Assembly: GCF_019061145.1 (NCBI RefSeq)
Contig: NZ_JAHQZS010000007.1
Span: forward strand, 1 to 64,000
Origin: Anianabacter salinae
Lineage (GTDB): Bacteria > Pseudomonadota > Alphaproteobacteria > Rhodobacterales > Rhodobacteraceae
Direction: 5' to 3'
DNA length: 64,000 bases
Shown: in pieces, positions 13,240-63,110 of the stretch
Position numbering within the stretch: position 1 is the stretch's first letter
How the letters are laid out: each line of letters begins with the position of its first letter
Position numbers and translations under genes: made by a program
The notes under the pieces: generated by a model
Told to the model about the DNA's origin: nothing
Database searches by the model: none
What the model saw: the letters and a program-made list of their open reading frames with translations, nothing else

Positions 13240-14697
13240 CTACTCGCGCCAGAACATCGGCGTGAGGATCACGAAGACCGACATGATCTCGAGCCGCCCC
13301 AAGAGCATGCAGAACGTCAGCAGCCATTTGGCAGTGTCGTTGATCGTTGCGAAGTTGCCTGCGGGTCCGATGGTATCGCCAAGGCCCGGTCCGATATTGG
13401 CCATGGCCGTTGCAGCGCCGGACAAGGCGGTGACGGTATCAAGCCCCGTCGCCGCCAGAAGCACCGCCATTACGCCCATCGTCACGAAGAACAGGACGAA
13501 AAAGGCCATGACCGAAGACAGCACGTCCTCGCCCACGGTCCGTCCGTCATAGCGCGGCGAAAACATCCCGTGCGGCGAGTGGATCTTGCGGATCTGCGCC
13601 GAGATCGAGGCAAAGAGAATCTGGTAGCGAAAGATCTTGACCGAACAACAGGTCGATCCCGCGCAGCCGCCGATCAGACCCACGAAAAAGAACAGTACCA
13701 CCGGGAAGGTGCCCCAAAGCTGGTAATCCACGCTGGCATAGCCGGTGCCGGTGATGATCGAGGTGATGTTGAACGTCGCCTCGCGCAGCGCATGCTCGAA
13801 ATGGTCCCCGTTCGCGAGGATGCGGTAAACGGTCATCAGGGCGACAAGCCCCAAGATCAGCACGATGAAAACTCGCACCTGGCTGTCGCGCCGCAATGGC
13901 ATAACCGACCCGGCCAAGAGTTGCACGTAGCGCACGAAGGGCAGGCTCGCCAAGATCATGAACACCGAGGCGACATACTCGGCAGGCCCCTGGAACTGGC
14001 CGAAACTGGCGTCGTATGTGGAAAAGCCGCCCGTCGACAACGTGGTCAGCGCATGGTTCGCCGCGTCGAAAGTGCCCATCCCTGTGGCAAGGTAGGACAG
14101 GAAGCAGCCGAAGGTCAGCGCCACGTAGGCGGCGCCGATCCGCGATGCGATCTGCGCGGCACGCGGCAGCACCTTGCCGTCGGTGTCGAACGCCTCGGAG
14201 CGGAAGATCTGCATGCCGCCGACCTTGAGTTCCGGCAGGAACACCATCGCCACGATGATGATCCCGATCCCGCCGAACCATTGCAGCATCGAGCGCCACA
14301 AGAGCAGCCCCTGTGGCAGCCGTTCCAGCCCGGTGAACACTGTCGAGCCGGTGGTGGTCAGGCCGGACATCGCCTCGAAAAAGGCGTCGACGACCCGCGC
14401 CTCGGTCGCGCCCAGAACAAAGGGCACCGCGCCGAACACCGGCAGCATGACCCAGACGGCGGTGGTCACCAGGAACGTCTGGCGGATCGTCAGGCGCCCG
14501 CCGGCAGAGTTGGCCGAAGCCAGCGCGACAAGCGCGCCCGCCGAGGTCACCACCACCGACGCTTCCAGCATCGCCAGCCAGTGATCGTTTCCGAAGTAGA
14601 GGTCGACGAACATCGGAAGGGTCATCGACAGTCCAAGAACCGCGACGAGAATGCCGATCAGGTAGGCGACGGGGCGCAGGTCGAACATGACCGCCAC
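13240..14697 (-). CDS. TrkH-family potassium uptake channel subunit
   Basis: A 485-residue integral membrane protein with the fourfold M1-P-M2 design of TrkH/KtrB. The four selectivity-filter loops are visible as TTTGSTVF (about residue 108), STGGFSTYDASF (about 225), TGTGYASVDYQ (about 320) and NIGPGLGDTIGP (about 440). It imports K+ with a cytosolic TrkA/KtrA-type RCK partner, which is not in this window. M1 or M4 could be the true start. It is encoded immediately after folE2 on the same strand (56 bp) and ends at a shared terminator. Confidence 0.93.
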   Translation of the reverse strand: MAVMFDLRPVAYLIGILVAVLGLSMTLPMFVDLYFGNDHWLAMLEASVVVTSAGALVALASANSAGGRLTIRQTFLVTTAVWVMLPVFGAVPFVLGATEARVVDAFFEAMSGLTTTGSTVFTGLERLPQGLLLWRSMLQWFGGIGIIIVAMVFLPELKVGGMQIFRSEAFDTDGKVLPRAAQIASRIGAAYVALTFGCFLSYLATGMGTFDAANHALTTLSTGGFSTYDASFGQFQGPAEYVASVFMILASLPFVRYVQLLAGSVMPLRRDSQVRVFIVLILGLVALMTVYRILANGDHFEHALREATFNITSIITGTGYASVDYQLWGTFPVVLFFFVGLIGGCAGSTCCSVKIFRYQILFASISAQIRKIHSPHGMFSPRYDGRTVGEDVLSSVMAFFVLFFVTMGVMAVLLAATGLDTVTALSGAATAMANIGPGLGDTIGPAGNFATINDTAKWLLTFCMLLGRLEIMSVFVILTPMFWRE

Positions 14698-52229: not shown

Positions 52230-52257
52230 TTAGCGCGCAGCATGTGACTCTTTGCAT
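52230..52257 (-). promoter_or_regulatory. Predicted promoter of the catabolic cluster
   Basis: On the minus strand, TTGCAT within the right half of the palindrome is followed after 17 bp by CATGCT, a weak -10. This would put the operator over the -35 element, a standard place for repression. The -10 match is poor, so confidence is limited. Confidence 0.35.
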
Positions 52258-52267
52258 ACGTATGCAA
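52252..52267. promoter_or_regulatory. Perfect 16-bp palindrome, likely LacI-family operator
   Basis: TTGCATACGTATGCAA is a perfect inverted repeat with the central CG typical of LacI-family operators. It is the most AT-rich spot of the 155-bp divergent region between the solute-binding protein gene and the SnoaL gene at 52334. The LacI regulator encoded at 44188-45207 in the same cluster is the obvious candidate to bind it. Confidence 0.8.
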
Positions 52268-52333
52268 GATTTTTCTTGCGCGGCCTCCGGTTCCGGTGTC
52301 GGACTGTTCCGGACACCATCGCCAAGGCCTTCC

Positions 52334-53395
52334 ATGACGCACGCCCCTACCCTTCCAGCCTCTGTCCGCCGCGCCGTCCGGGACGGCCTGCTGCGCCTCG
52401 CCGACTGCCCGCCCGCGCAGGTGCCGGGCGTTCTAGAAGCGATCTCGACACCGGGCACCGACTGGCGGGTTTCTCACCCGATCAACGAGGTGCGTGGTCC
52501 CGAGGCAGCAGCCAGCGCCGCTTTTGTGCCGCTCAAGACAGCCTTCCCGGACCTTGAACGACGCGACACGATCCGCGTCGGCGGCGTCTACGAGGGCCGC
52601 AACTATGTCGCCGCCGTCGGAACCTATTGCGGCACGTTCCGGCACGACTGGCTGGGCATCCCCGCCACCGGGCTGACGGCCCACCTGCGTTATGGCGAGG
52701 TCTATGAGGTCGATACAGACGGCCGCATCCTTCAGGCGAACCTGCTGTGGGACGTGCTTGACCTGGTCCGCCAGGCCGGGCTGGCCCCGCTTGCGCCCAG
52801 TCTTGGAGCAGAGGGGATGTGGCCGGGTCCGATCACGGGCGACGGGCTGCGCCTTGATCCGTCGGACCCCGGCGAAGGCGCGGCCTCGATCGCGCAGACG
52901 CTTGCGATGCACGCCTCATTGGCCGAATTCGACGATGCGGGGCGCCTGAACCGCGAGAACCTGATCGCGATGCCGCAACGCGACCACTGGCACCCCAAGA
53001 TGATGTGGTACGGGCCTTCGGGGATCGGCACGACGCGCGGGCTGGACGGCTTCGTCGACGGGCACCAGTTGCCGTTCCGCATCGCCTTTCGCAGGCCGCA
53101 AGGGACATTCGAGGCCGTCACCGCCGAACGCCGCAGGCACGGCGCGGGGCACTACATCCGCATCGGCGACGGACCCTATTCGGTCACCGGCGGCTGGCCG
53201 TCGGTCTACGCCATCCACGACGGCGGCGGGTTCTGCGGGATGCCGCCCACAGGCCGCCCGGTCACGATGCGCGTGATGGACTTCTACCTGCACGACGAGG
53301 GCCTGATCCGCGAGAACTGGGTCCCGCTCGACATGCTGGACCTGTTCCGCCAGATGGGCGTCGACGTCCTCGCACGGGCGTTGGCCAAGGTCTGA
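52334..53395 (+). CDS. Divergent two-domain SnoaL-like protein
   Basis: A 353-residue protein with two NTF2/SnoaL units. The first (about 35-160) has WRVSHPINEVRGPEAAASAA and RYGEVYEVDTDGRILQANLL. The second (about 215-350) has HPKMMWYGPSGIGTTRGLDG, GHYIRIGDGPYSVTGGWPSV and TMRVMDFYLHDEGLIRENWV. The second half resembles ester-cyclase type SnoaL proteins. It is transcribed away from the ABC operon across the shared operator, so it is probably co-induced. The ATG at 52334 is preferred over an upstream ATG at 52244 that lacks similarity. Confidence 0.8.
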   Translation: MTHAPTLPASVRRAVRDGLLRLADCPPAQVPGVLEAISTPGTDWRVSHPINEVRGPEAAASAAFVPLKTAFPDLERRDTIRVGGVYEGRNYVAAVGTYCGTFRHDWLGIPATGLTAHLRYGEVYEVDTDGRILQANLLWDVLDLVRQAGLAPLAPSLGAEGMWPGPITGDGLRLDPSDPGEGAASIAQTLAMHASLAEFDDAGRLNRENLIAMPQRDHWHPKMMWYGPSGIGTTRGLDGFVDGHQLPFRIAFRRPQGTFEAVTAERRRHGAGHYIRIGDGPYSVTGGWPSVYAIHDGGGFCGMPPTGRPVTMRVMDFYLHDEGLIRENWVPLDMLDLFRQMGVDVLARALAKV

Positions 53396-53407: not shown

Positions 53408-53908
53408 TCATCCGCCCGGGCGCGCGGGGCCGACCTGTTCCCAGACGGCATCCGGCGTCAGGTCGGCTCGGGGGCTGCCGGTCTCGAACCCCAGCAGATG
53501 ATCCAGCGACAGACGGCCCGGCCCATGGGCAAGGATCGGCAGAAGCGCGGCGATCCACAGCCCATGGGTGATCCAGGCGCCGGGGTAGACGAAGATCTGG
53601 ATGACGGCGGTCATCACGATCAGCCCCAGCGCCGAGAGGCGCGAGAACAGCCCGGCGATCAGCAGGATGGGCAGCGCATGTTCAGCCACTGTCGCCAGCA
53701 CCGCCGCAACCTCGTGCGAGATCACGGGCAGCGCGTATTCATGCTCGAACAGGAAGAACGTGCTGTCCTTGATCGAGAACACCCCCTCAACCTTGGTGCG
53801 CCCGGACTGAAAGAAGACCATGGCCGGAAAGACGCGCAGGGCAAGCGCCACGACGTCGGCGGGAATGCGGTCGAACAGCGCATTCGCGCGCAGCAGGATG
53901 GATTTCAT
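53408..53908 (-). CDS. DoxX-family membrane protein of the bufferin operon (BufD-like)
   Basis: A 166-residue protein with four helices ([81 protein letters not shown]; approximate positions 20-41, 66-85, 92-111, 113-131), the DoxX design. DoxX proteins commonly accompany DUF692/DUF2063/DUF2282 genes, as in the Caulobacter buf operon. It may handle redox or membrane steps linked to the metallophore; the role is not established. It starts 3 bp after the DUF2063 gene. Confidence 0.87.
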
Positions 53909-53911
53909 CGG

Positions 53912-54664
53912 TCAACTCTCCGGTGGGTGAATGAACCCGCCCGCCTGCATCAGCAGGACAAGGACGGTCTGGGGCGCATGGCCGGGGTCGGCCCACTGCG
54001 CGAGTTCGGCGGCGGCGTGCAGGGTGGCGCCGGTCGCAAGATGCTCGACAAGGATCAGATCACCCTGGGAAATCTCGTGCACCTGGACGGCAAGGCTGCG
54101 GTCGCGCAGCACGAGCGCGAACTGGTCGCCGGAGGGGATGCGCTGCGCCGCGTCCGCGCCGGGCTGGTTCTGCCGCCAGATCGTCAGGGCGGCGGCCCCG
54201 AATTGCAGGACCTGCACCGACGGGTGCAGCGTCAGCACCAGCCGCGACGGATCGGCGCCCGCAACGGCAGCGGGGTCCAGCGGCGCGGCATCGGCAGCGT
54301 GATACGCCCTGCCCCGCGCCCATTCCAGCCGGGCCACATCGCGCATGTAGGGATAGCCCGCCAGCGGCGCGAACCCGGCCAGGAAGTCGGGAAAACTGTC
54401 GCCCCAGTCCAGCAGCACCGGAGTGCGGGGGCGATGGGTTTCGGAATACACCCGTCCCAGCGCGGCGAAGAATGGATCGCCCACCAGCCGCCGGATCACC
54501 GGGAACCGCTGGCCCAGCGCCTCGCTCAGGCTGTGCGAGACATTGTTGCGATAGACCGCAAAGCGCAGGTCCGCATCGCCGTCGCAAAAGACCGCGCCGG
54601 GCGGCAACGCGGCAGTGCGCAGCCCTTCGGCAAAGCTGCCTGCAAATTCAGGATGCGAGGGCAT
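53912..54664 (-). CDS. DUF2063 partner protein of the MNIO enzyme (BufC-like)
   Basis: A 250-residue protein of the DUF2063 family. The N-terminal helical domain is typical: [60 protein letters not shown] and [20 protein letters not shown] (given by their key stretches between residues 32 and 125). In RiPP systems with MNIO enzymes this partner recognises the precursor and presents it to the DUF692 enzyme. It overlaps that gene by 17 bp. Confidence 0.88.
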
Positions 54665-55499
54665 GGCGGTGTCCGGCAGCGTTCAGAACAGAGCGCGCGC
54701 GGGCGGCCTCTGCCTGCAGCACCGGCCATTCGGGCACGTCGTTGTCCCATTCCACCAGCACCGGGCAGGCGCCGATCCGGGCGATGACTTCGGCGAACAG
54801 CGTCCACACCGGCTCGGCCACAGGCGAGCCATGTGTGTCGATCAGCAAGGCGCCGCCGGGCAGGTGATCCTCGTCATGGCCGCCAAGATGGATCTCGCCC
54901 ACCGCCTCGACCGGGAAATCGGCCAGATAAGCGCGCGGGTCGCGCTGCTGGTTCGCGGCAGAGACGAAGACGTTGTTCACGTCCAGAAGCAACCCGCAGC
55001 CGGTGCGGCGCACGATCTCGCGCAGAAACGCGGTTTCCTCGATGCTCGATTGCTCGAACATCAGGTAGGTCGATGGGTTCTCCAGCAGCATCCGGCGGCC
55101 CAGCGCCTCTTGCACCTCGTCGATGTGATCGCACACCAGCGCCAGGGTTTCGGGCGTGTAGGGCAAGGGCAGCAGGTCGTTGAGGTATTCGGTCCCGTGG
55201 CTGGACCAGGCAAGATGCTCTGAAAAGCTTTCGGGCTGATAGCGCAGGCACAGGGCACGCAGGCGCTCCAGATGATCGCGGTCAAGCGGTCCCGGCCCGC
55301 CGATCGACAAGCCGACGCCGTGCAGCGAGATGGCATGATCCTCGCGCAGCGCCGTCAGTTGCGCGTGCGGCACGCCGCCCGCGCCCATGTAATTCTCGGC
55401 GTGGATCTCGAAGAAATCCATTTGGCGCGCACTGGCGCGGATCGCCTCGAAATGCGCGGACTTGAACCCCACGCCGACGCCGGAAGGCAGATGTGTCAT
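54648..55499 (-). CDS. MNIO (DUF692) RiPP-modifying enzyme (BufB-like)
   Basis: A 283-residue TIM-barrel enzyme of the DUF692 family, a multinuclear non-haem iron oxidase. Candidate iron ligands are visible in [71 protein letters not shown] and [12 protein letters not shown], in family order. Such enzymes oxidise Cys residues of small precursor peptides; in the bufferin system they make thiooxazole rings from cysteines. The ATG at 55499 ([12 protein letters not shown]) is chosen, with AGGACGAG upstream. It follows the precursor gene by 73 bp. Confidence 0.93.
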
Positions 55500-55572
55500 C
55501 GTCGTCTCGTCCTGCTTCGGGGGTCTGTAGTGCCGGACGGGATGAACCACCCGCCCGGCGTCGATTGTCCGC

Positions 55573-55878
55573 TTACGCGGGAATGTCGCGGTCCAGAGCT
55601 TCAAGCGCACCGGCGCGCATCGAGCCGTCTGCCGCCGCGGGCACTTCGATCTCGGCGCAAGTGCCTGCGGGAACGAGGGTCCAGGCGTTGCCCTGGAAAT
55701 CCACCTTGGAGGTTCCGGCGCAGGTCGTGCCGGGGCCTGCGGCGCAGTCGTTTTCGCCTGCAAGCGAGACGCCAAAGCACTTTTCCATCTCCTGTGCGTG
55801 CACGGGCGCGGCGGCCATCACGCTGAGGGCACAGGCGAGGGACGCACCAAGGCCGAGGCCCGATTTCATTGCGGTCAT
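55573..55878 (-). CDS. Bufferin-type RiPP precursor (DUF2282), secreted
   Basis: A 101-residue precursor. A Sec-type signal peptide (about 1-28, ending VHA) is followed by the conserved DUF2282 core: [35 protein letters not shown] and LVPAGTC, with Cys at 34, 45, 53 and 74. In described bufferins the two central Cys (here 45 and 53) are converted by the MNIO enzyme, and the product sequesters copper in the periplasm. An unusual C-terminal tail of about 25 residues (from EVPAAADGS) follows Cys74. GGAG lies 8 bp before the ATG. First gene of a four-gene operon. Confidence 0.92.
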
Positions 55879-55928
55879 GAGTAAGCTCCATGTCATTTTG
55901 AACGAGGGCGGTTCCTTGCCCACGCGTA

Positions 55929-55957
55929 AGGGTCTTTTCGCGCAGGCCAGTTGTTAC
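55929..55957 (-). promoter_or_regulatory. Predicted ECF-type promoter of the bufferin operon
   Basis: On the minus strand GTAACA (55952-55957), 17 bp, then GACCCT (55929-55934). The same spaced pair, GTAACA-N17-GTCTCT, precedes the divergent anti-sigma gene. A -35 with AAC is typical of ECF sigma factors. The leader to the precursor ATG would be about 44 nt. Confidence 0.55.
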
Positions 55958-56101
55958 GCGGCTCGCAATGCTGTGATGTCGGGGTCAGGCGGTCGGTGGT
56001 CCCCCACCGGCCAAAGCCGCACCAAGGGCCGAGAACGTCAGAGAAAGATGTGCTTCCAACTGACGCAGCCATGGATTTCGGAAGCATGCCGACATATTTC
56101 C

Positions 56102-56130
56102 GTAACAAGTCGCACGATGGCGGAGTCTCT
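56102..56130 (+). promoter_or_regulatory. Predicted ECF-type promoter of the anti-sigma gene
   Basis: GTAACA (56102-56107), 17 bp, then GTCTCT (56125-56130), identical in layout to the site in front of the bufferin operon 150 bp away on the other strand. The start point would fall about 26 bp before the ATG at 56163. Confidence 0.55.
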
Positions 56131-56162
56131 TGCTCGGTCATGTAGGCCCGGGAAACCCGACG

Positions 56163-56414
56163 ATGATGATGAGCTGCAAAGAGGTCGCCGAACGCGCGAG
56201 CAAACTGATCGACGGCGAATGCTCTCCGTGGGAGGCGTTGCGGATCCGGCTTCACCTCGCGATGTGCGACGGTTGCAGCGGTTTCGTCACGCAGCTTCGC
56301 ACGCTCGACAAACTTGCCAAGGATGCTGTGGGCACGGATCAGGCCGATGAAACCGTGCCTGCCACCGGCAAGTATTCCGACGCGCTGGCCGCACTCCGCG
56401 ACAAGAGCGGCTGA
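56163..56414 (+). CDS. Small zinc-finger anti-sigma factor
   Basis: An 83-residue cytoplasmic protein of the zf-HC2/ZAS type: SCKEVAERASKLIDGECSPW, then LRIRLHLAMCDGCSGFVTQL, giving the H-x3-C-x2-C zinc motif (HLAMCDGC) and an upstream Cys. Such short proteins bind and silence an ECF sigma factor and release it on oxidative or metal signals. No sigma gene is next to it; the nearest ECF gene is at 62490-63110. Three consecutive ATG codons (56163, 56166, 56169) could serve as start. Divergent from the bufferin operon. Confidence 0.85.
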   Translation: MMMSCKEVAERASKLIDGECSPWEALRIRLHLAMCDGCSGFVTQLRTLDKLAKDAVGTDQADETVPATGKYSDALAALRDKSG

Positions 56415-56473
56415 GCAGACCGCCAATCCGCATCAGCTGGCATGGTCCGAGGACAGCGTGCAGATCGTGCCGG

Positions 56474-57097
56474 TCAGTGGCGAGCGGCGCACAAGCTCGC
56501 CACGGCAAGCCCGGCGATCCGGTGCAGATCGGCCGCCGGTGTTCCCGACCGTGCCCGAAGCATGATCCCCCGTGCCACCGCAGCCAGCAGTCCCGCCATC
56601 GCGCGCGTGTCTGCCGCATCGCCCGGCGCCGTATCCCTTGAAAGGCGATCCTCGATCCGCGCCTCAAGCGCCGAGAAGCGGGCATCGAGTTCGCGGCGCA
56701 GTGCCGCGCTGGACCCGGCTGCATCGGCAAGAACGCAAGAGATCAGGCACCCCGGCGTCTCGCGGTCCCGCGTCGCAAGGGCGACGACCTCCTGGTAGAA
56801 CGCCTCGAGGTCTTCGCGCAGGCTTCCCCTAGGGCCAAGCGCCTCGGCCACCGGAACAAGCCGGGTCTCTGCGTAGCGGGCGATCGCGGCGCGAAACAGG
56901 TCTTCCTTGTTGCCGAACAGCTGGTACAGGCTTGCCCGCGGCATGTGCATCTCGCGGCACAGGGTATCGACAGAGGCCGCCGCATAGCCCGTTCTCCAGA
57001 ACACCCGGACCGCGGCATCGAGGGCGGCGCCGGGATCGAAGCCTCGGGGGCGCCCGCGACTGCGCTGGGGCGGTGAATTCGGCACGGCGTCACTCAT
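56474..57097 (-). CDS. TetR-family transcriptional regulator
   Basis: A 207-residue TetR regulator with the helix-turn-helix at about 20-65 (ALDAAVRVFWRTGYAAASVD, TLCREMHMPRASLYQLFGNK) and a C-terminal ligand domain of the TetR_C_16 / AcrR-like sort (CLISCVLADAAG). It is 64 bp downstream of the peptide-type ABC operon and in the same direction, so it may be cotranscribed and act on the palindromes at 62371-62402 or on its own upstream CGAAACGTTCG-like sequence. Confidence 0.85.
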   Translation of the reverse strand: MSDAVPNSPPQRSRGRPRGFDPGAALDAAVRVFWRTGYAAASVDTLCREMHMPRASLYQLFGNKEDLFRAAIARYAETRLVPVAEALGPRGSLREDLEAFYQEVVALATRDRETPGCLISCVLADAAGSSAALRRELDARFSALEARIEDRLSRDTAPGDAADTRAMAGLLAAVARGIMLRARSGTPAADLHRIAGLAVASLCAARH

Positions 57098-57161: not shown

Positions 57162-58859
57162 CTAACGGAACCGGACAGTTGGCGTCTGGGCCAGCAAGTC
57201 CCTCGAATAGGCGTGGCGCGGGCCATCAAAGAACGCCTCTGACGGGCCGGTCTCGACCAGCTTGCCGTCCTTCAGAACGGTGATGTCGTCGGACATCTGC
57301 CGCACGACGGCAAGGTCGTGGCTGATGAACAGGGTCGTCAGCCCGAACTTCGTCTGAAGCTCTTTCAAAAGGTTGAGGATCTGCGCCTGGATCGACACAT
57401 CGAGCGCGCTTGTCGGCTCGTCGCAGATCAACAGGCCGGGCCGGGACAACAGCGCGCGCGCGACTGCGATCCGCTGGCGCTGCCCGCCAGAGAACTGGTG
57501 CGGATAGCGGTCGGCGACCTCGGCGGGAAGTCCGACGAGCGCCAGCATCGCCCGCGCAAGCCGGTCCTGACGAGCCTCATCGCGTTCCAGCCCATAGAGA
57601 CGCAACGGTTCGGTCAGGATGCTCAGCACCTTGTGGCGCGAGTTGAGGCTCGAATACGGGTCCTGGAACACCATCTGGATGACGCGCCGCGACGGGTCCT
57701 TGCGCGTGCGCCGCCGCATCGGTGCCAGCGCCGCGCCGTCGAGGCGCATCTCTCCTGCGGCAGGATGCACAAGCGCCGCGATCACCTTGGCCAGCGTGGA
57801 TTTGCCGGACCCGCTTTCGCCGACAAGGCCCATGACGGTTCCGGGCCTTACGGACATGGTCACATCATCCAGCGCAACGAAGGACTCGCGCGGGCCGAAC
57901 AGGCCGCGCCGTTCGCCCGTGAAGCGCACGGTGATGGCTTCGATGTCCAGCGCCGGACCCATGGAGGCGCCGCCCCCGGCCCCGGACATCAGCCAGTCTT
58001 CGGCCTCGCGCGCCGGAGCCGTCAGGTCGGTCGTCTCGGCCTCGCCCTCGACGCGCGGGACGGCAAAGCGGCGAAGCCTGCGGTCAAGCGGCGGTACCGC
58101 TGCCATTAACGCCTTGGTGTAGGGATGCTCGGGCGCGCCAAGAACGCGGGCGGTGTCGCCCTGTTCCACCACCTTGCCGTCGCGCAAGACCGTCACCCGG
58201 TCCGCAATCTGGGCGATCACCCCGATATCATGCGTGATCAGGATGAACCCGATGCCGCGCGTCTCGGCCAGCTTGCGGATCAGGTCGAGCACCTGCGCCT
58301 GAACGGCGACGTCCAGTGCGGTCGTCGGCTCGTCCGCGATGATGAGTTCGGGGTTGGTGCAAAGCGCCAGCGCGATAACCACGCGCTGCCGCATCCCGCC
58401 CGAGAACTGGTGCGGATAGGACCGGATGCGCGCGCGGGCGTTGGCGATTCCGATTTCTTCCAGCAGGTCGACGGCGCGGGTCAGGGCAGCCTCGGCCGGA
58501 ATATCCTCGTGCGCAAGGATCGTCTCGACCAACTGGTCGCCGATGGTCATCAGCGGATCGAGGCTGGTCTGCGGGTCCTGAAAGATCATCGAGATGCGTT
58601 TGCCGCGCAGATGGTGCGCCTGCGCCGCCGACAGCGTGCGCAGGTCGGTGTCTCCCAGCCGCATGTCCCCTGCGGCGATCTCTCCGGCAGGGGGCAGCAG
58701 GCCCATGATCGCCGCCCCGATGGTCGACTTGCCTGCGCCGGACTCGCCCACCAACCCGTGAATCTCGCCGCGCGCGACGGTCATCGTCACGTCTTCCACG
58801 GCGGTGGCGGCGCCCGTGCGGTGGCGAAAGCGCACCGTCAATCCAGCGACGGACAGCAT
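57162..58859 (-). CDS. Dipeptide/oligopeptide-type ABC ATPase with two nucleotide-binding domains
   Basis: A 565-residue fusion of DppD- and DppF-like halves. Half one: Walker [10 protein letters not shown], signature [12 protein letters not shown], Walker [13 protein letters not shown]. Half two (from about residue 300): [35 protein letters not shown]. The fused form resembles GsiA/YejF. It drives the importer made of the two upstream permeases and the family 5 binding protein. The ATG at 58859 overlaps the permease stop by 4 bp. Confidence 0.94.
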
Positions 58860-59767
58860 CAGCGCAGGCTCGGGTTGAAGAGGTCGCGCAGGAAATCCCC
58901 GAGCAGGTTGATCGACACGACAAGCACGACAAGAAACACCGTCGGCATCCACAGGATCCACCATTCGCCCGACAGCAGGTATTGCATGCCGATGCGGATC
59001 AGCGTGCCAAGCGACGGCGAGTCCGCCGGTAGCCCGACGCCAAGGAACGACAGCGTCGCCTCGAGCAGGATCGCCGAGGCAAGGTCCACGGTCGCGATCA
59101 CCAGCAGCGGCCCAACGATGTTCGGCAGGATATGGCGCAGCATGATCCGCAGCGGATGCTGGCCCATCATGATCGCCGCCTGAACATAATCCTTGTTGCG
59201 TTCGACGAATGTCGAGGCGCGGGCGGTGCGGGCGAAATTGACCCAAAGCGACAGGGCAATCGCCAGCGTGATGACCGCAAGGCGCAGGTCGTCATGCACC
59301 TCGCGCGGCAGGATCCCGCGCGATATGCCGTCGATCAGAAGCGCCGTCAGGATCGCCGGAAGCGCCAGCTGGACATCCGCCACCCGCATGACGATGGCAT
59401 CGAGGCGTCCGCCGAAGAACCCGGCGGCCAGCCCAAGGCTGACCCCGAGCACCAGCGCGATCCCCATCGCGACGCTCGCGATGATCAGCGACAGCCGCGC
59501 GCCGTAGAGGATCGACGACAGCATGTCCCGCCCCTGATCGTCGGTGCCGAGCAGGAAACGCGGATCGCCCCCCTGCTCCCACAGGGGCGGCAGAAGCCCG
59601 TCGATCAGCGAGAAGGACGACAGATCATAAGGATTGGTCGGCGCGATCCACGGTGCAAGCACCGCGCCCGCGACCACGACAATCGTGACGATGGCGGCAA
59701 GGATCGCGGCGGGGTTGCGGCTGAACAGCCAGACCCCTTCGGTCTGCATCAGGCGTGCGAGCATCAT
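58859..59767 (-). CDS. Peptide-type ABC permease (DppC type)
   Basis: A 302-residue permease. An N-terminal OppC_N helix (NPAAILAAIVTIVVVAGAVLAPW) precedes GTDDQGRDMLSSILYGARLS, the classical DppC signature, and the EAA loop QAAIMMGQHPLRIMLRHILP (about 205-224). Both ends overlap neighbours by 3-4 bp. Confidence 0.94.
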   Translation of the reverse strand: MMLARLMQTEGVWLFSRNPAAILAAIVTIVVVAGAVLAPWIAPTNPYDLSSFSLIDGLLPPLWEQGGDPRFLLGTDDQGRDMLSSILYGARLSLIIASVAMGIALVLGVSLGLAAGFFGGRLDAIVMRVADVQLALPAILTALLIDGISRGILPREVHDDLRLAVITLAIALSLWVNFARTARASTFVERNKDYVQAAIMMGQHPLRIMLRHILPNIVGPLLVIATVDLASAILLEATLSFLGVGLPADSPSLGTLIRIGMQYLLSGEWWILWMPTVFLVVLVVSINLLGDFLRDLFNPSLR

Positions 59768-60738
59768 GCGCTTTCTCGCACGCGCAGCCTTGGGTCGATG
59801 GCAAGATAGATCAGGTCGACCAGCAGGTTGATGAAGACGAAGAAGAACGCGATCACGACGAGGTAGACGCTCATCACCGGGATGTCGACGAAGCGGATCG
59901 ATTCAAGGAACAGCAGCCCCATGCCGGGCCATTGGAACACGCTTTCGGTGACAATGGAAAACGCGATCACCCCGCCGAACTGCAGGCCGATGATCGTGAC
60001 GACCGGGATCATCGTGTTTGGCAGCGCGTGGCGATACCTGATCCGCCGCCACGGCACGCCCCGCGCGATGGCAAAGCGGATGTGGTCGGTCCGCATGACC
60101 TCCATCATCTGGGCGCGCACCAGCCGCATGGTCAGCGTCAGCTGGAACAGGCCCAGCGTCAGCGCCGGAAGGACAAGTGACCGCAGCCCGTCGACGGACA
60201 GCAGCGACGTGCGCCACCAGCCGATCTCGACCGTATCGCCGCGCCCGTAGGTGGGCAGCCAGCCCAGTTGGACGCCGAACAGAAAGATCAGAAGGATACC
60301 GATCACGAAGGTGGGGATCGACACGCCGATGAGCGTTCCGATCAGGATGGACTGGCTGACCAGCCCCCGTGGCCGCAGCGCCGTGTAGATCCCCGCCGGG
60401 ATGCCCACCGCCAGCGAGATCAGAAGCGCGACGGTGCCCAGTTCCAGCGTAGCGGGCAGCCGCGTCAGAAGCATCTCGCCAATCGGCTCACGCGTGCGGA
60501 ACGAATAGCCGAAATCGCCCTGCACCAGATCGCCCGCAAAGCGGATGAATTGCAGGGCGAAGGGATCATTGAGGCCAAGCTCTTCGCGCAGTCGCGCCTG
60601 ATCCTCGAGAGAGGTCTCGACGCCGGTCATCTGGCTGACCGGATCACCGACGAACCTGAACAACGAGAATGCGAGAAAGGCGACGGCCAGCATCACGAAG
60701 ACGGACTGGACAAGCCGTTTCAGGATGAAGCCGACCAT
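59764..60738 (-). CDS. Peptide-type ABC permease (DppB type)
   Basis: A 324-residue permease with six helices. N-terminal FILKRLVQSVFVMLAVAFLAFSLF and the GDFGYSFRTREPI region are typical of DppB/OppB. The EAA loop contains TDHIRFAIARGVPWRRIRYR and HALPNTMIPVVTIIGLQFGG. It begins 15 bp after the binding-protein gene. Confidence 0.94.
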   Translation of the reverse strand: MVGFILKRLVQSVFVMLAVAFLAFSLFRFVGDPVSQMTGVETSLEDQARLREELGLNDPFALQFIRFAGDLVQGDFGYSFRTREPIGEMLLTRLPATLELGTVALLISLAVGIPAGIYTALRPRGLVSQSILIGTLIGVSIPTFVIGILLIFLFGVQLGWLPTYGRGDTVEIGWWRTSLLSVDGLRSLVLPALTLGLFQLTLTMRLVRAQMMEVMRTDHIRFAIARGVPWRRIRYRHALPNTMIPVVTIIGLQFGGVIAFSIVTESVFQWPGMGLLFLESIRFVDIPVMSVYLVVIAFFFVFINLLVDLIYLAIDPRLRVRESA

Positions 60739-60753
60739 CGCCTTTCCCTTCGA

Positions 60754-62328
60754 TCAGTTCACCGTCACCCAGCGCAGCATGAAGAAGTTGTCGGGGCGCT
60801 GGATCACCTCGACATTGTCCTTCATCGCCCAGATCAGCGGCTCGGTGTAGAGCGGAACGTAGGCCACATCATCCTGAAGGATACCGGCAACCTCGTCCAT
60901 CATGCCCTGGCGCGCGTCGGGGTCGATTTCCTGCAGGATCGGCGTCATCAGCTCGTCGATCCGCGCGCTGGAATAGCCGCCGAAGTTCCAGGTGCCCAGA
61001 CGCTCGGTCGGGGTGTGCGCAAGAAAGCGGAACGGGTGCTCTGCGTCGAAGGTGCCCGGCGACCAGCCCAGCAGATACATGTCGAAGTTGTCGGCGCGCA
61101 GTTCGTCCCAGTAGCCGCGCACAGGCATCGCGTTGACGTTGGCTTCGATCCCGACGCGCGCCAGCATCGACGCAACGGCGCGGCAGACGGCCTCGTCGTT
61201 GATGTAGCGGTCATTCGGGCACATCAGGCCGAACGAAAAGCCGTCGGGATACCCGGCCTCGGCCAGCAGGGCGGTGGCGGCGTCAGGGTCAAAGGCCGGA
61301 CGCTCGGCGTTCTCTTCCGAGTAGCCGGACAGGCCCGCAGGCAACAGCTGGCTGACCGGCTCCGCCGCGCCGCGCATGATGACGCGGTCGATGGTCTCGA
61401 CGTCGATGGCTTGCGCCACGGCAAGCCGGACGCGCGGATCGAGGAAGGGGTTGGCGTCGGTCGTCTCGTCCGAATACTTCAGCGTTTCGTGGTCATGGCC
61501 GAAGCCCAGCATGATGACGCGGGTCTCAAGCCCTGCCAGAACCTTGAACCCGTCGCGTTCCTCGACCTGTGTCACGTCCTGAAGCGGGATCGGAGAGATG
61601 AAGTCGATCTCGCCCGACAAAAGCGCCGCAAGGCCGGTCGCCGGGTTGCCGATCGGGGTGAACACGGCTTCGGTCAGGTTGTGCTCTGCGGTGTCCCACC
61701 AGCCCGAGAATGGCGTCAGGCGGGTCTCAATCCCCGGATCGCGCGAGGCCAGCACGAAGGGGCCGGTGCCGTTCGCATTCCGCGTCGCATGGTTCTCGGC
61801 GTCGCGGGCGGGCATCTCTGCGGCGTTCGCCTCGGCCCAGCCGGAATCCAGGATCATGAAATTCGCGATGGACCCCGGAAACAGCGGGTTCGGCGCCGAG
61901 GTCAGGAAATCGACGGTGTAATCGTCCACGCGTTCGACGCCGGTGATCGACGAGAACCACGATTTGACATCGGACGGCTCCGAGATCGCCCGCTCGTAGG
62001 AAAAGATCACGTCGTCTGCGTTGAACTCGGACCCGTCGTGATAGGTCACGCCCTGCCGCAAGGTGAACCGCCAGCCCGCGCCGTCCGGCAGCGCCTCCCA
62101 CGAGGTCGCGAGCGACGGCTGGATGTCCATGTCGGGACCGCGGCGCACCAGACCCTCGTAGACGTTGTTCAGAAACGACAGGACCGGCGCCGCGTTGACG
62201 GCGTGCGGGTCCATCGTCTGCGGATCGGTGGTGCCCGCCCAGCTGAACGTCTCCGATATTGCGGGGGACGCCGACAGCAGCAAGGCGCTCAAGGCCAGCA
62301 CGGTGGTGTGTGGTTGTGATCGATGCAT
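60754..62328 (-). CDS. ABC transporter solute-binding protein, family 5
   Basis: A 524-residue periplasmic binding protein with a signal peptide (MHRSQPHTTVLALSALLLSASPAIS); no lipobox Cys, so it is soluble. Family 5 features: the TMDPHAVNAAPVLSFLNNVYEGLV start of the mature protein, LRQGVTYHDGSEFNADDVIF, and DPRVRLAVAQAIDVETIDRV. Substrates of this family include oligopeptides, nickel, glutathione and opines; none can be assigned here. GAGGG precedes the ATG. Confidence 0.93.
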   Translation of the reverse strand: MHRSQPHTTVLALSALLLSASPAISETFSWAGTTDPQTMDPHAVNAAPVLSFLNNVYEGLVRRGPDMDIQPSLATSWEALPDGAGWRFTLRQGVTYHDGSEFNADDVIFSYERAISEPSDVKSWFSSITGVERVDDYTVDFLTSAPNPLFPGSIANFMILDSGWAEANAAEMPARDAENHATRNANGTGPFVLASRDPGIETRLTPFSGWWDTAEHNLTEAVFTPIGNPATGLAALLSGEIDFISPIPLQDVTQVEERDGFKVLAGLETRVIMLGFGHDHETLKYSDETTDANPFLDPRVRLAVAQAIDVETIDRVIMRGAAEPVSQLLPAGLSGYSEENAERPAFDPDAATALLAEAGYPDGFSFGLMCPNDRYINDEAVCRAVASMLARVGIEANVNAMPVRGYWDELRADNFDMYLLGWSPGTFDAEHPFRFLAHTPTERLGTWNFGGYSSARIDELMTPILQEIDPDARQGMMDEVAGILQDDVAYVPLYTEPLIWAMKDNVEVIQRPDNFFMLRWVTVN

Positions 62329-62489: not shown

Positions 62490-63110
62490 TCATTCGCCAA
62501 GGTCCAGCATCCGGGCCCGGAGCGCAAGGCGGGCGCGGTGCAGCAGGACGCGCATGTTCCCTTCCGAAATTCCAAGCAACGCGCAGACCTCGGACGCCTC
62601 CAGTTCCTGCTGGACACGAAGGATGATAACGGCGCGCTGGGGCGGCGGCAGCGCGTCTATCGCGGCGTTCACAAGGGCAGCGCTGGACCGACCCGAGGCG
62701 ATCCGCTCTGGCGTGATATCCTCGCGCAACTCGGCCATGTCCTTCCACCGGCCCCGCCCGTCGAAAGCATCGGACAGATCGTCGCCGAAATCATCGTCGA
62801 ACGACACCACGCGGCCATCTCTGCGCGCCCGCGTCCGCGCCTTGTTCAGCAGGATCGAGAAGATCCACGCCGCAAGTGTGGACCGCAGCTCGAAGCTGGA
62901 GATGCCCTTGAGAACGGCCATCCAGGTGTCCTGCACCACATCCTCGGCTGTCGCCCTGCCCTTGACCACCGAGGACGCCACCCGGATCATCGACGGCGTG
63001 TGCCGCCCATACAGGTGCGCGAACACACGCTCGTCGCCCAGCCGGAGGCCTTCCACCAGTTCCGCGTCGCTCAGCTCGTCGTCGTCCATCAGGCTTCCCG
63101 CAAATGCCAT
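62490..63110 (-). CDS. ECF-family RNA polymerase sigma factor
   Basis: A 206-residue sigma-70 family ECF protein. Region 2 (about 30-95): FAHLYGRHTPSMIRVASSVV, KGRATAEDVVQDTWMAVLKG, SFELRSTLAAWIFSILLNKA. Region 4 (about 145-200): ALVNAAIDALPPPQRAVIIL, LEASEVCALLGISEGNMRVL, HRARLALR. The linker between them is unusually acidic (SFDDDFGDDLSDAFDG). No anti-sigma gene adjoins it. The small anti-sigma at 56163 is the nearest candidate partner. Start ATG 63110 (AAGGTG upstream) or 63089 (MDDDELSD, GGGAAG upstream). Confidence 0.92.
   Translation of the reverse strand: MAFAGSLMDDDELSDAELVEGLRLGDERVFAHLYGRHTPSMIRVASSVVKGRATAEDVVQDTWMAVLKGISSFELRSTLAAWIFSILLNKARTRARRDGRVVSFDDDFGDDLSDAFDGRGRWKDMAELREDITPERIASGRSSAALVNAAIDALPPPQRAVIILRVQQELEASEVCALLGISEGNMRVLLHRARLALRARMLDLGE

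Follow-up and report, generated by a model that had tools for sequence, protein, structure and literature searches.

A putative ECF sigma factor and soluble zinc-finger anti-sigma factor pair at a bufferin operon of Anianabacter salinae lacking detectable SigF and NrsF

The stretch of DNA analysed in this work, here called the window, covers positions 1 to 64,000 of contig NZ_JAHQZS010000007.1 of Anianabacter salinae (assembly GCF_019061145.1). It carries a bufferin operon, bufA-bufB-bufC-doxX, which is divergent from a gene for a soluble zinc-finger anti-sigma factor (ZAS); beyond the anti-sigma gene lie a TetR regulator gene, a transporter operon and a gene for an ECF sigma factor (Table 1). 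The features of a Buf1 cluster are all present by profile matches: the DUF2282 precursor, the BufB maturase and the DUF2063 partner. Bufferin operons have been described as being under SigF-type sigma factors with the membrane anti-sigma factor NrsF, and the bufferins themselves sequester copper (PMC12452194). A 383-aa protein with two SnoaL-like stretches is encoded at 52244-53395, near the end of the buf operon.

Table 1. Genes and predicted promoters of the bufferin region and its surroundings (window coordinates)
Feature	Coordinates	Strand	Evidence or remark
DoxX/HvfX-like membrane protein	53408..53908	-	PF07681 3.2e-15
bufC, DUF2063 partner protein	53912..54664	-	PF09836 2.5e-22
bufB, MNIO bufferin maturase	54648..55499	-	NF050167 MNIO_BufB 384 bits (cut-off 310); PF05114
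bufA, Buf1/DUF2282 bufferin precursor	55573..55878	-	PF10048 3.1e-24; signal-peptide-like N-terminus; ATG 55878 or 55869
Predicted bufA promoter, GTAACA-N17-GACCCT (= GTAAC-N18-GAC), GTAACAACTGGCCTGCGCGAAAAGACCCT	55929..55957	-	rank 9/255,820 in relatives' matrix
Predicted anti-sigma promoter, GTAACA-N17-GTCTCT (= GTAAC-N18-GTC), GTAACAAGTCGCACGATGGCGGAGTCTCT	56102..56130	+	rank 1/255,820
Soluble zinc-finger anti-sigma factor (ZAS, zf-HC2), 81-83 aa	56163..56414	+	PF13490 41 bits; NF052368 54.7 bits (cut-off 50)
TetR regulator, convergent with anti-sigma gene	56474..57097	-	convergent pair also in Rhodovulum L012/L013
Peptide-type ABC transporter operon between TetR and ECF gene	57162..62328	-	neighbour, not claimed as regulon
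ECF sigma factor, putative cognate of anti-sigma at 56163	62490..63089	-	PF04542, PF08281; 48-65% identical to ZAS-adjoining ECFs

The initial annotation proposed that the divergent region carries a GTAACA-N17-GnCnCT promoter on both strands, each at a sensible distance from its ATG. This region is 284 bp long, from the ATG at 55878 (minus strand) to the ATG at 56163 (plus strand), and both sites were found as claimed with 17 bp between the hexamers in each. The -10 hexamer begins about 56 nt 5' of the start codon at the bufA site and 38-41 nt 5' of it at the ZAS site, and the latter spacing agrees with that in relatives, where the -10-to-start distance before ZAS is 35-41 nt in 15 of 16 cases (56 in the other). 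An Rfam scan of 55500-56500 gave no match.

The pattern GTAACA-N16..18-GNCNCT matches the window twice, against a mean of 0.05 matches in shuffled sequences, and none of 100 shuffles reaches two. Across the genome (3,641,124 bases, 15 contigs) there are four matches including the window pair, fewer than the 15 of the reversed control pattern. One of the other two matches is inside a permease-like ORF, and one stands about 165 bp ahead of an amidohydrolase-like ORF (labels assigned by eye); we regard both sites (C8:149453 and C1:479885) as chance occurrences. Since the two sites themselves served to define the pattern, these window and genome counts are an after-the-fact description, and independent evidence was sought. 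A matrix was built from the anti-sigma promoters of 21 relatives with the window left out, and all 255,820 placements in the window were scored. The ZAS site ranks first with 16.8 bits (the next placement has 14.7 bits) and the bufA site ranks ninth with 10.9 bits. From these ranks the predicted ZAS promoter appears solid and the bufA promoter plausible; the bufA half is the weaker of the two, its -10 sequence GACCCT being a poor fit to the matrix. A regulon search with GTAACN17-18GTCYYT gave counts at or below control level (3 in the A. salinae genome vs 6 for the reversed pattern), and therefore no additional target is claimed.

The ECF gene at 62490, named in the initial annotation as the candidate sigma factor, proved to be the orthologue of an ECF gene that stands beside ZAS in relatives. 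Only a few genomes of the family have such an orthologue (48-65% identity), 15 of 394 at E 1e-20, a count that includes A. salinae itself and in which three match rows have only 35-38% identity; an order-level search at E 1e-40, on a set that overlaps the family search, gave 9 of 390 genomes. We compiled 22 loci, made up of 13 from the family search, G199, the Rhodovulum loci L012 and L013, three from the order search and three of 11 plasmid records; three ECF matches of 35-38% identity (G008, G415 and a second one in G009) and the other eight plasmid records were left out. The ZAS gene adjoins the ECF gene in 21 of the 22 loci, and in 21 of 21 ECF-ZAS loci the gap between sigma and anti-sigma genes contains GTAAC-N17-GTC directly before ZAS. 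When 16 of these gaps were compared with shuffled sequence, 16 of 16 had the motif vs 0.0165 gaps expected; these loci cannot count as independent samples, given that L012 and L013 are almost identical. The promoter is also kept in S. meliloti, whose representative (L209) has an ECF about 37% identical; in the ECF relative L212 neither a ZAS gene nor the motif was detected. Upstream of the ECF gene GTAAC-N15..18-G[AT]C was found in 0 of the same 16 loci, the search there running from the beginning of the open frame wherever the conserved residue could not be placed. With a promoter between sigma and anti-sigma genes and none before the ECF gene, the brake would have its own switch. Besides these ZAS genes, buf genes at three loci (L012, L013 and L210) have the same promoter type. 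DUF6789, the usual third gene after ECF-ZAS, was not found in the A. salinae genome and so provides no further target there.

At L154 4737-5452 (G383:C17) the DUF6789 gene and a divergent substrate-binding-protein gene each have GTAAC-N17-GTCC, a matched pair that hints at further members of this ECF regulon; the substrate-binding-protein gene adjoins a CDP-alcohol phosphatidyltransferase-like ORF. A neighbourhood of similar make-up is found at L207 8001-16528 on Pseudooceanicola algae plasmid p111, where ECF-ZAS stands beside an ABC transporter, a CDP-alcohol phosphatidyltransferase and a TVP38/TMEM64-oxidoreductase set. On a Pseudorhodobacter turbinis plasmid (L208) GTAAC-N18-GTCCCT occurs at 13504, about 4 kb downstream of DUF6789.

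We then compared the regulators of 80 buf loci. SigF and NrsF are found together at 70 loci, SigF only at two, NrsF only at one, ECF-ZAS at two (Rhodovulum) and neither system at five. NrsF (PF06532) had no match in the A. salinae genome, with a positive Caulobacter control; it was also not found in G197, G198, G199 and G244, and it is present in 11 of 12 other buf genomes, the twelfth (G205) having SigF beside buf. No SigF orthologue was found among the A. salinae ECFs, the best of which scores 30 bits vs 64-382 bits in SigF-bearing loci. The contrast with Caulobacter SigF/NrsF drawn in the initial annotation therefore holds for this assembly, in which neither protein was found; the genome is 95.3% complete, so SigF could be missing from the assembly. 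SigF-type loci have GTAAC-N18-G[AT][AC] before bufA in 59 of 73 cases and GTAAC-N17-G[AT]C in none of 73. At nine of the 73 the -10 matches GAC or GTC, with a GAA match besides at one of the nine. These SigF-type promoters agree with the SigF consensus GTAACC-N16-CGAA (PMC3511200) and with the S. meliloti RpoE7 promoters (PMC6180224). The window bufA site has the GTAAC -35 and the N18 spacing of the SigF type, and its -10 is AGACCCT, not CGAA.

The buf loci linked to ECF-ZAS have promoters of another form. In Rhodovulum, where bufABC-doxX, TetR, ZAS and ECF genes lie together, the bufA promoters of L012/L013 are GTAAC-N17-GAC / GTAAC-N17-GTC, with the same N17 as the ZAS genes of these genomes. 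In L210 (G638) bufA, ZAS and bufB are each preceded by GTAAC-N17-GTCAT, and in L155, from the same genus, ECF, promoter, ZAS, bufA, bufB, bufC and doxX follow one another in a row. L014, the nearest BufB to the window by tree path and one of the five loci with neither system, has GTAAC-N17-CTC instead of GTC before bufA, and ECF-ZAS about 20 kb off on the same contig. We had predicted GTAAC-N17-GTC before bufA in all buf operons of genomes that carry the ECF and lack NrsF. This prediction failed at seven of seven loci (L195-L201), which form one distant BufB clade; hence control of buf cannot be deduced from the presence of the ECF, and the claim was narrowed to buf loci linked to ECF-ZAS. That separate clade is well supported, with neither SigF/NrsF nor ECF-ZAS near buf.

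In the BufB tree the window falls in a supported clade of 11 (97/89) with L014, L012, L013 and seven loci that have SigF downstream of bufABC-doxX, and this clade is itself embedded among loci with SigF. L155 and L210 form a group distant from the window (100/94). The tree fits at least two take-overs of buf by ECF-ZAS. Either a single event or two could account for the window clade, since window and Rhodovulum are not joined in the ECF tree. The buf locus L047, from a 4.26-Mb record titled Exiguobacterium profundum (CP059262.1), falls among Gemmobacter and other Paracoccaceae in the same tree, and the record is probably a mislabelled assembly.

The window ECF and ZAS genes are about 6 kb apart; they are adjacent in 21 relatives. 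In Rhodovulum the order is bufABC-doxX, TetR, then convergent ZAS and ECF, and in G443 (L150) a single contig carries the transporter (permease and ATPases), a TetR remnant, then convergent ZAS and ECF. In the window, the minus-strand order of ECF, transporter and TetR is followed by convergent ZAS and then by bufA facing away. Thus ZAS keeps its place opposite TetR, the ECF gene lies beyond the transporter, and the buf operon stands where the ECF gene would. A rearrangement that separated the anti-sigma gene from its sigma gene in the window lineage is the best reading of these gene orders. Across the 21 loci the similarities of ECF and ZAS to those of the window rise together (Spearman 0.85), L147 being nearest for both, and in the ECF tree the window groups with L147 and L150 (100/99). 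From gene order and correlated similarity we infer a continuing partnership of ECF 62490 with ZAS 56163. The window transporter and its G443 counterpart (L150 3-1829) are 76-96% identical over the parts present, and identities for ECF (61%) and ZAS (49%) of the same pair are far below this.

Spacer length is matched within each genome. The two window promoters have N18 after GTAAC; N17 is found in all 21 ZAS relatives, at Rhodovulum bufA and before the L210 buf genes. The N18 of bufA may be inherited SigF spacing, and the N18 of ZAS is a 1-bp change from the N17 of its relatives. The shared N18, seen in one genome of the genus, hints at retuning.

The ZAS proteins of the window and 21 relatives all contain Cys-x25-H-x3-C-x2-C, and none of the 22 has a hydrophobic segment (the highest 19-residue hydropathy of the window protein is 0.81); MseR of Neisseria, in which the cysteines are important (PMC2893595), resembles them in this. 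The signal is thus probably sensed in the cytoplasm, in contrast to a system with six-helix NrsF (PMC3511200). The RsrA model gives 30.2 bits with the window ZAS, below the cut-off of 62.5, and a solved-structure search with the ZAS profile gave weak matches only, the best being RsiW at E 0.045.

A shared ECF for the bufferin operon and its own anti-sigma gene, the scheme put forward in the initial annotation, is the best-supported reading, given the ZAS promoters of the 21 relatives and the buf promoters of L012, L013 and L210. We consider it likely that ECF 62490 drives bufABC-DoxX together with its own anti-sigma gene, from which it has been separated by rearrangement. Both GTAACA-N17-GnCnCT sites would be read by this sigma factor as matched ECF-type promoters. 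The minus-strand site would drive bufA-bufB-bufC-doxX and thus production of a copper-sequestering bufferin, and the plus-strand site would drive the soluble ZAS, the presumed inhibitor of the same sigma factor. A thiol-reactive or metal signal, for which copper or thiol stress would be a candidate inducer, may disable the cytoplasmic ZAS, and the freed sigma factor would turn on the bufferin genes and fresh anti-sigma factor, with negative feedback as the consequence of this joint induction. The sigma gene itself lacks such a promoter. In the ancestor, sigma and anti-sigma genes would have been adjacent, and the gap separating them would have held the promoter. Today the sigma gene is found beyond the ABC transporter operon, and with the buf operon in place beside the anti-sigma gene the old gap promoter would face the bufA promoter. 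ECF-ZAS would here stand in for the SigF/NrsF control of most related buf operons.

Three other explanations were weighed. We think it unlikely that bufA has merely kept an old SigF-type (ECF16) promoter, served by an unseen SigF or another ECF, with only the ZAS promoter belonging to the 62490 ECF. The N18 spacing of SigF-type buf promoters and the occurrence of GAC or GTC among them mean that the bufA site, taken alone, could be such a relic, and the SigF loci within the window's BufB clade and the incomplete assembly point the same way. Against it stand the lack of NrsF and of a SigF orthologue among the ECFs found, the neighbouring ZAS promoter with the same spacer and an equivalent -10, and the ECF-ZAS type of the Rhodovulum and L210 buf promoters. 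A chance match at bufA is very improbable in our view. In its favour, several kinds of ECF promoter share GTAAC, the pair was chosen with hindsight, chance matches could reach a ninth rank in the window, and GTAACN17-18GTCYYT does not exceed its control genome-wide. Against it, the site lies on the right strand at the right distance from bufA with a spacer equal to its neighbour's, nearly all relatives have GTAAC before bufA, and L012, L013 and L210 have ECF-ZAS-type forms.

It is at least as improbable that the anti-sigma factor at 56163 serves another ECF, with ECF 62490 having lost or changed its partner. The two genes are not adjacent, and six further places in the A. salinae genome exceed the Sigma70_r4_2 cut-off; however, the other ECFs score no more than 34.5 bits against the window ECF, the ZAS genes next to orthologues of 62490 are closely related to this one, the similarity of ECF to its window counterpart increases along with that of ZAS and has its maximum at the same locus, and the two genes are still within about 6 kb of each other.

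The locus has partial counterparts among known systems. As with Caulobacter SigF and Sinorhizobium RpoE7/EcfR7 (ECF16), a bufABC-doxX Buf1 operon would be under an ECF with a GTAAC -35. The window ECF belongs to a different family from SigF (about 20 bits to the SigF query), its anti-sigma factor is soluble and of the zinc-finger kind, not a six-helix NrsF, and its promoters have GTC/GAC, not CGAA, at -10. A divergent arrangement with matched GTAACA promoters, like that of bufA and ZAS in the window, is found in S. meliloti for the SMb20530 operon and rpoE7-ecfR7 (PMC6180224), but the window sigma gene lies outside the divergent pair. The same organism provides a precedent for a separate anti-sigma promoter in rpoE6-ecfR6 (ECF26), where the anti-sigma gene may have its own sigma-dependent promoter inside the rpoE6 ORF (PMC6180224); that system differs in its GGAAT-type -35 and in a sigma gene that also appears autoregulated, and the accessible part of that paper reports no bufferin link. 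The zinc anti-sigmas RsrA and ChrR are cytoplasmic and have an H-x3-C-x2-C zinc motif plus an upstream Cys (PMC2893595), an arrangement shared by the window ZAS, although its similarity to the RsrA model is below cut-off.

Neisseria offers a further comparison. The genes NMB2140-2143 are presumably of DoxX/DUF2063/DUF692/DUF2282 type. The sigmaE/MseR system (NMB2140-NMB2145) is an ECF with a soluble ZAS anti-sigma factor, in which the ZAS cysteines and Cys4 are needed (PMC2893595), and the window likewise has an ECF plus a soluble ZAS. The Neisseria system differs in being one positively autoregulated operon that includes the sigma gene, with the anti-sigma gene not divergent from the target operon, and in its promoter, GTMAGBWTT-N12/13-CGTCTAAH. 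In the literature searched, with most subscription journals outside its coverage, we found no description of a ZAS-controlled bufferin operon in alphaproteobacteria; a 2025 survey (PMC12452194), in its available text, names only sigma factors and NrsF as regulators, the word 'zinc' being absent from it.

A broader proposal, which we hold tentatively and at somewhat less than even weight, is that ECF-ZAS is a portable brake-only module, with the promoter on the anti-sigma gene and targets and not on the sigma gene, which took over buf from SigF/NrsF at least twice (window/Rhodovulum and L155/L210) and moved sensing from membrane to cytoplasm; the window pair would have been split, and its shared 1-bp-longer spacers would point to retuning with the sigma factor. 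A promoter before the anti-sigma gene and not before the sigma gene departs from the positive autoregulation of usual ECF operons (PMC8103513), and such a brake-side promoter predicts fast, self-limiting induction. A clean ECF/anti-sigma swap at one operon that retains the -35 and alters the -10 would be a natural experiment in sigma-regulon rewiring. In a few related bacteria ECF-ZAS seems to replace the usual membrane-sensor control of buf operons.
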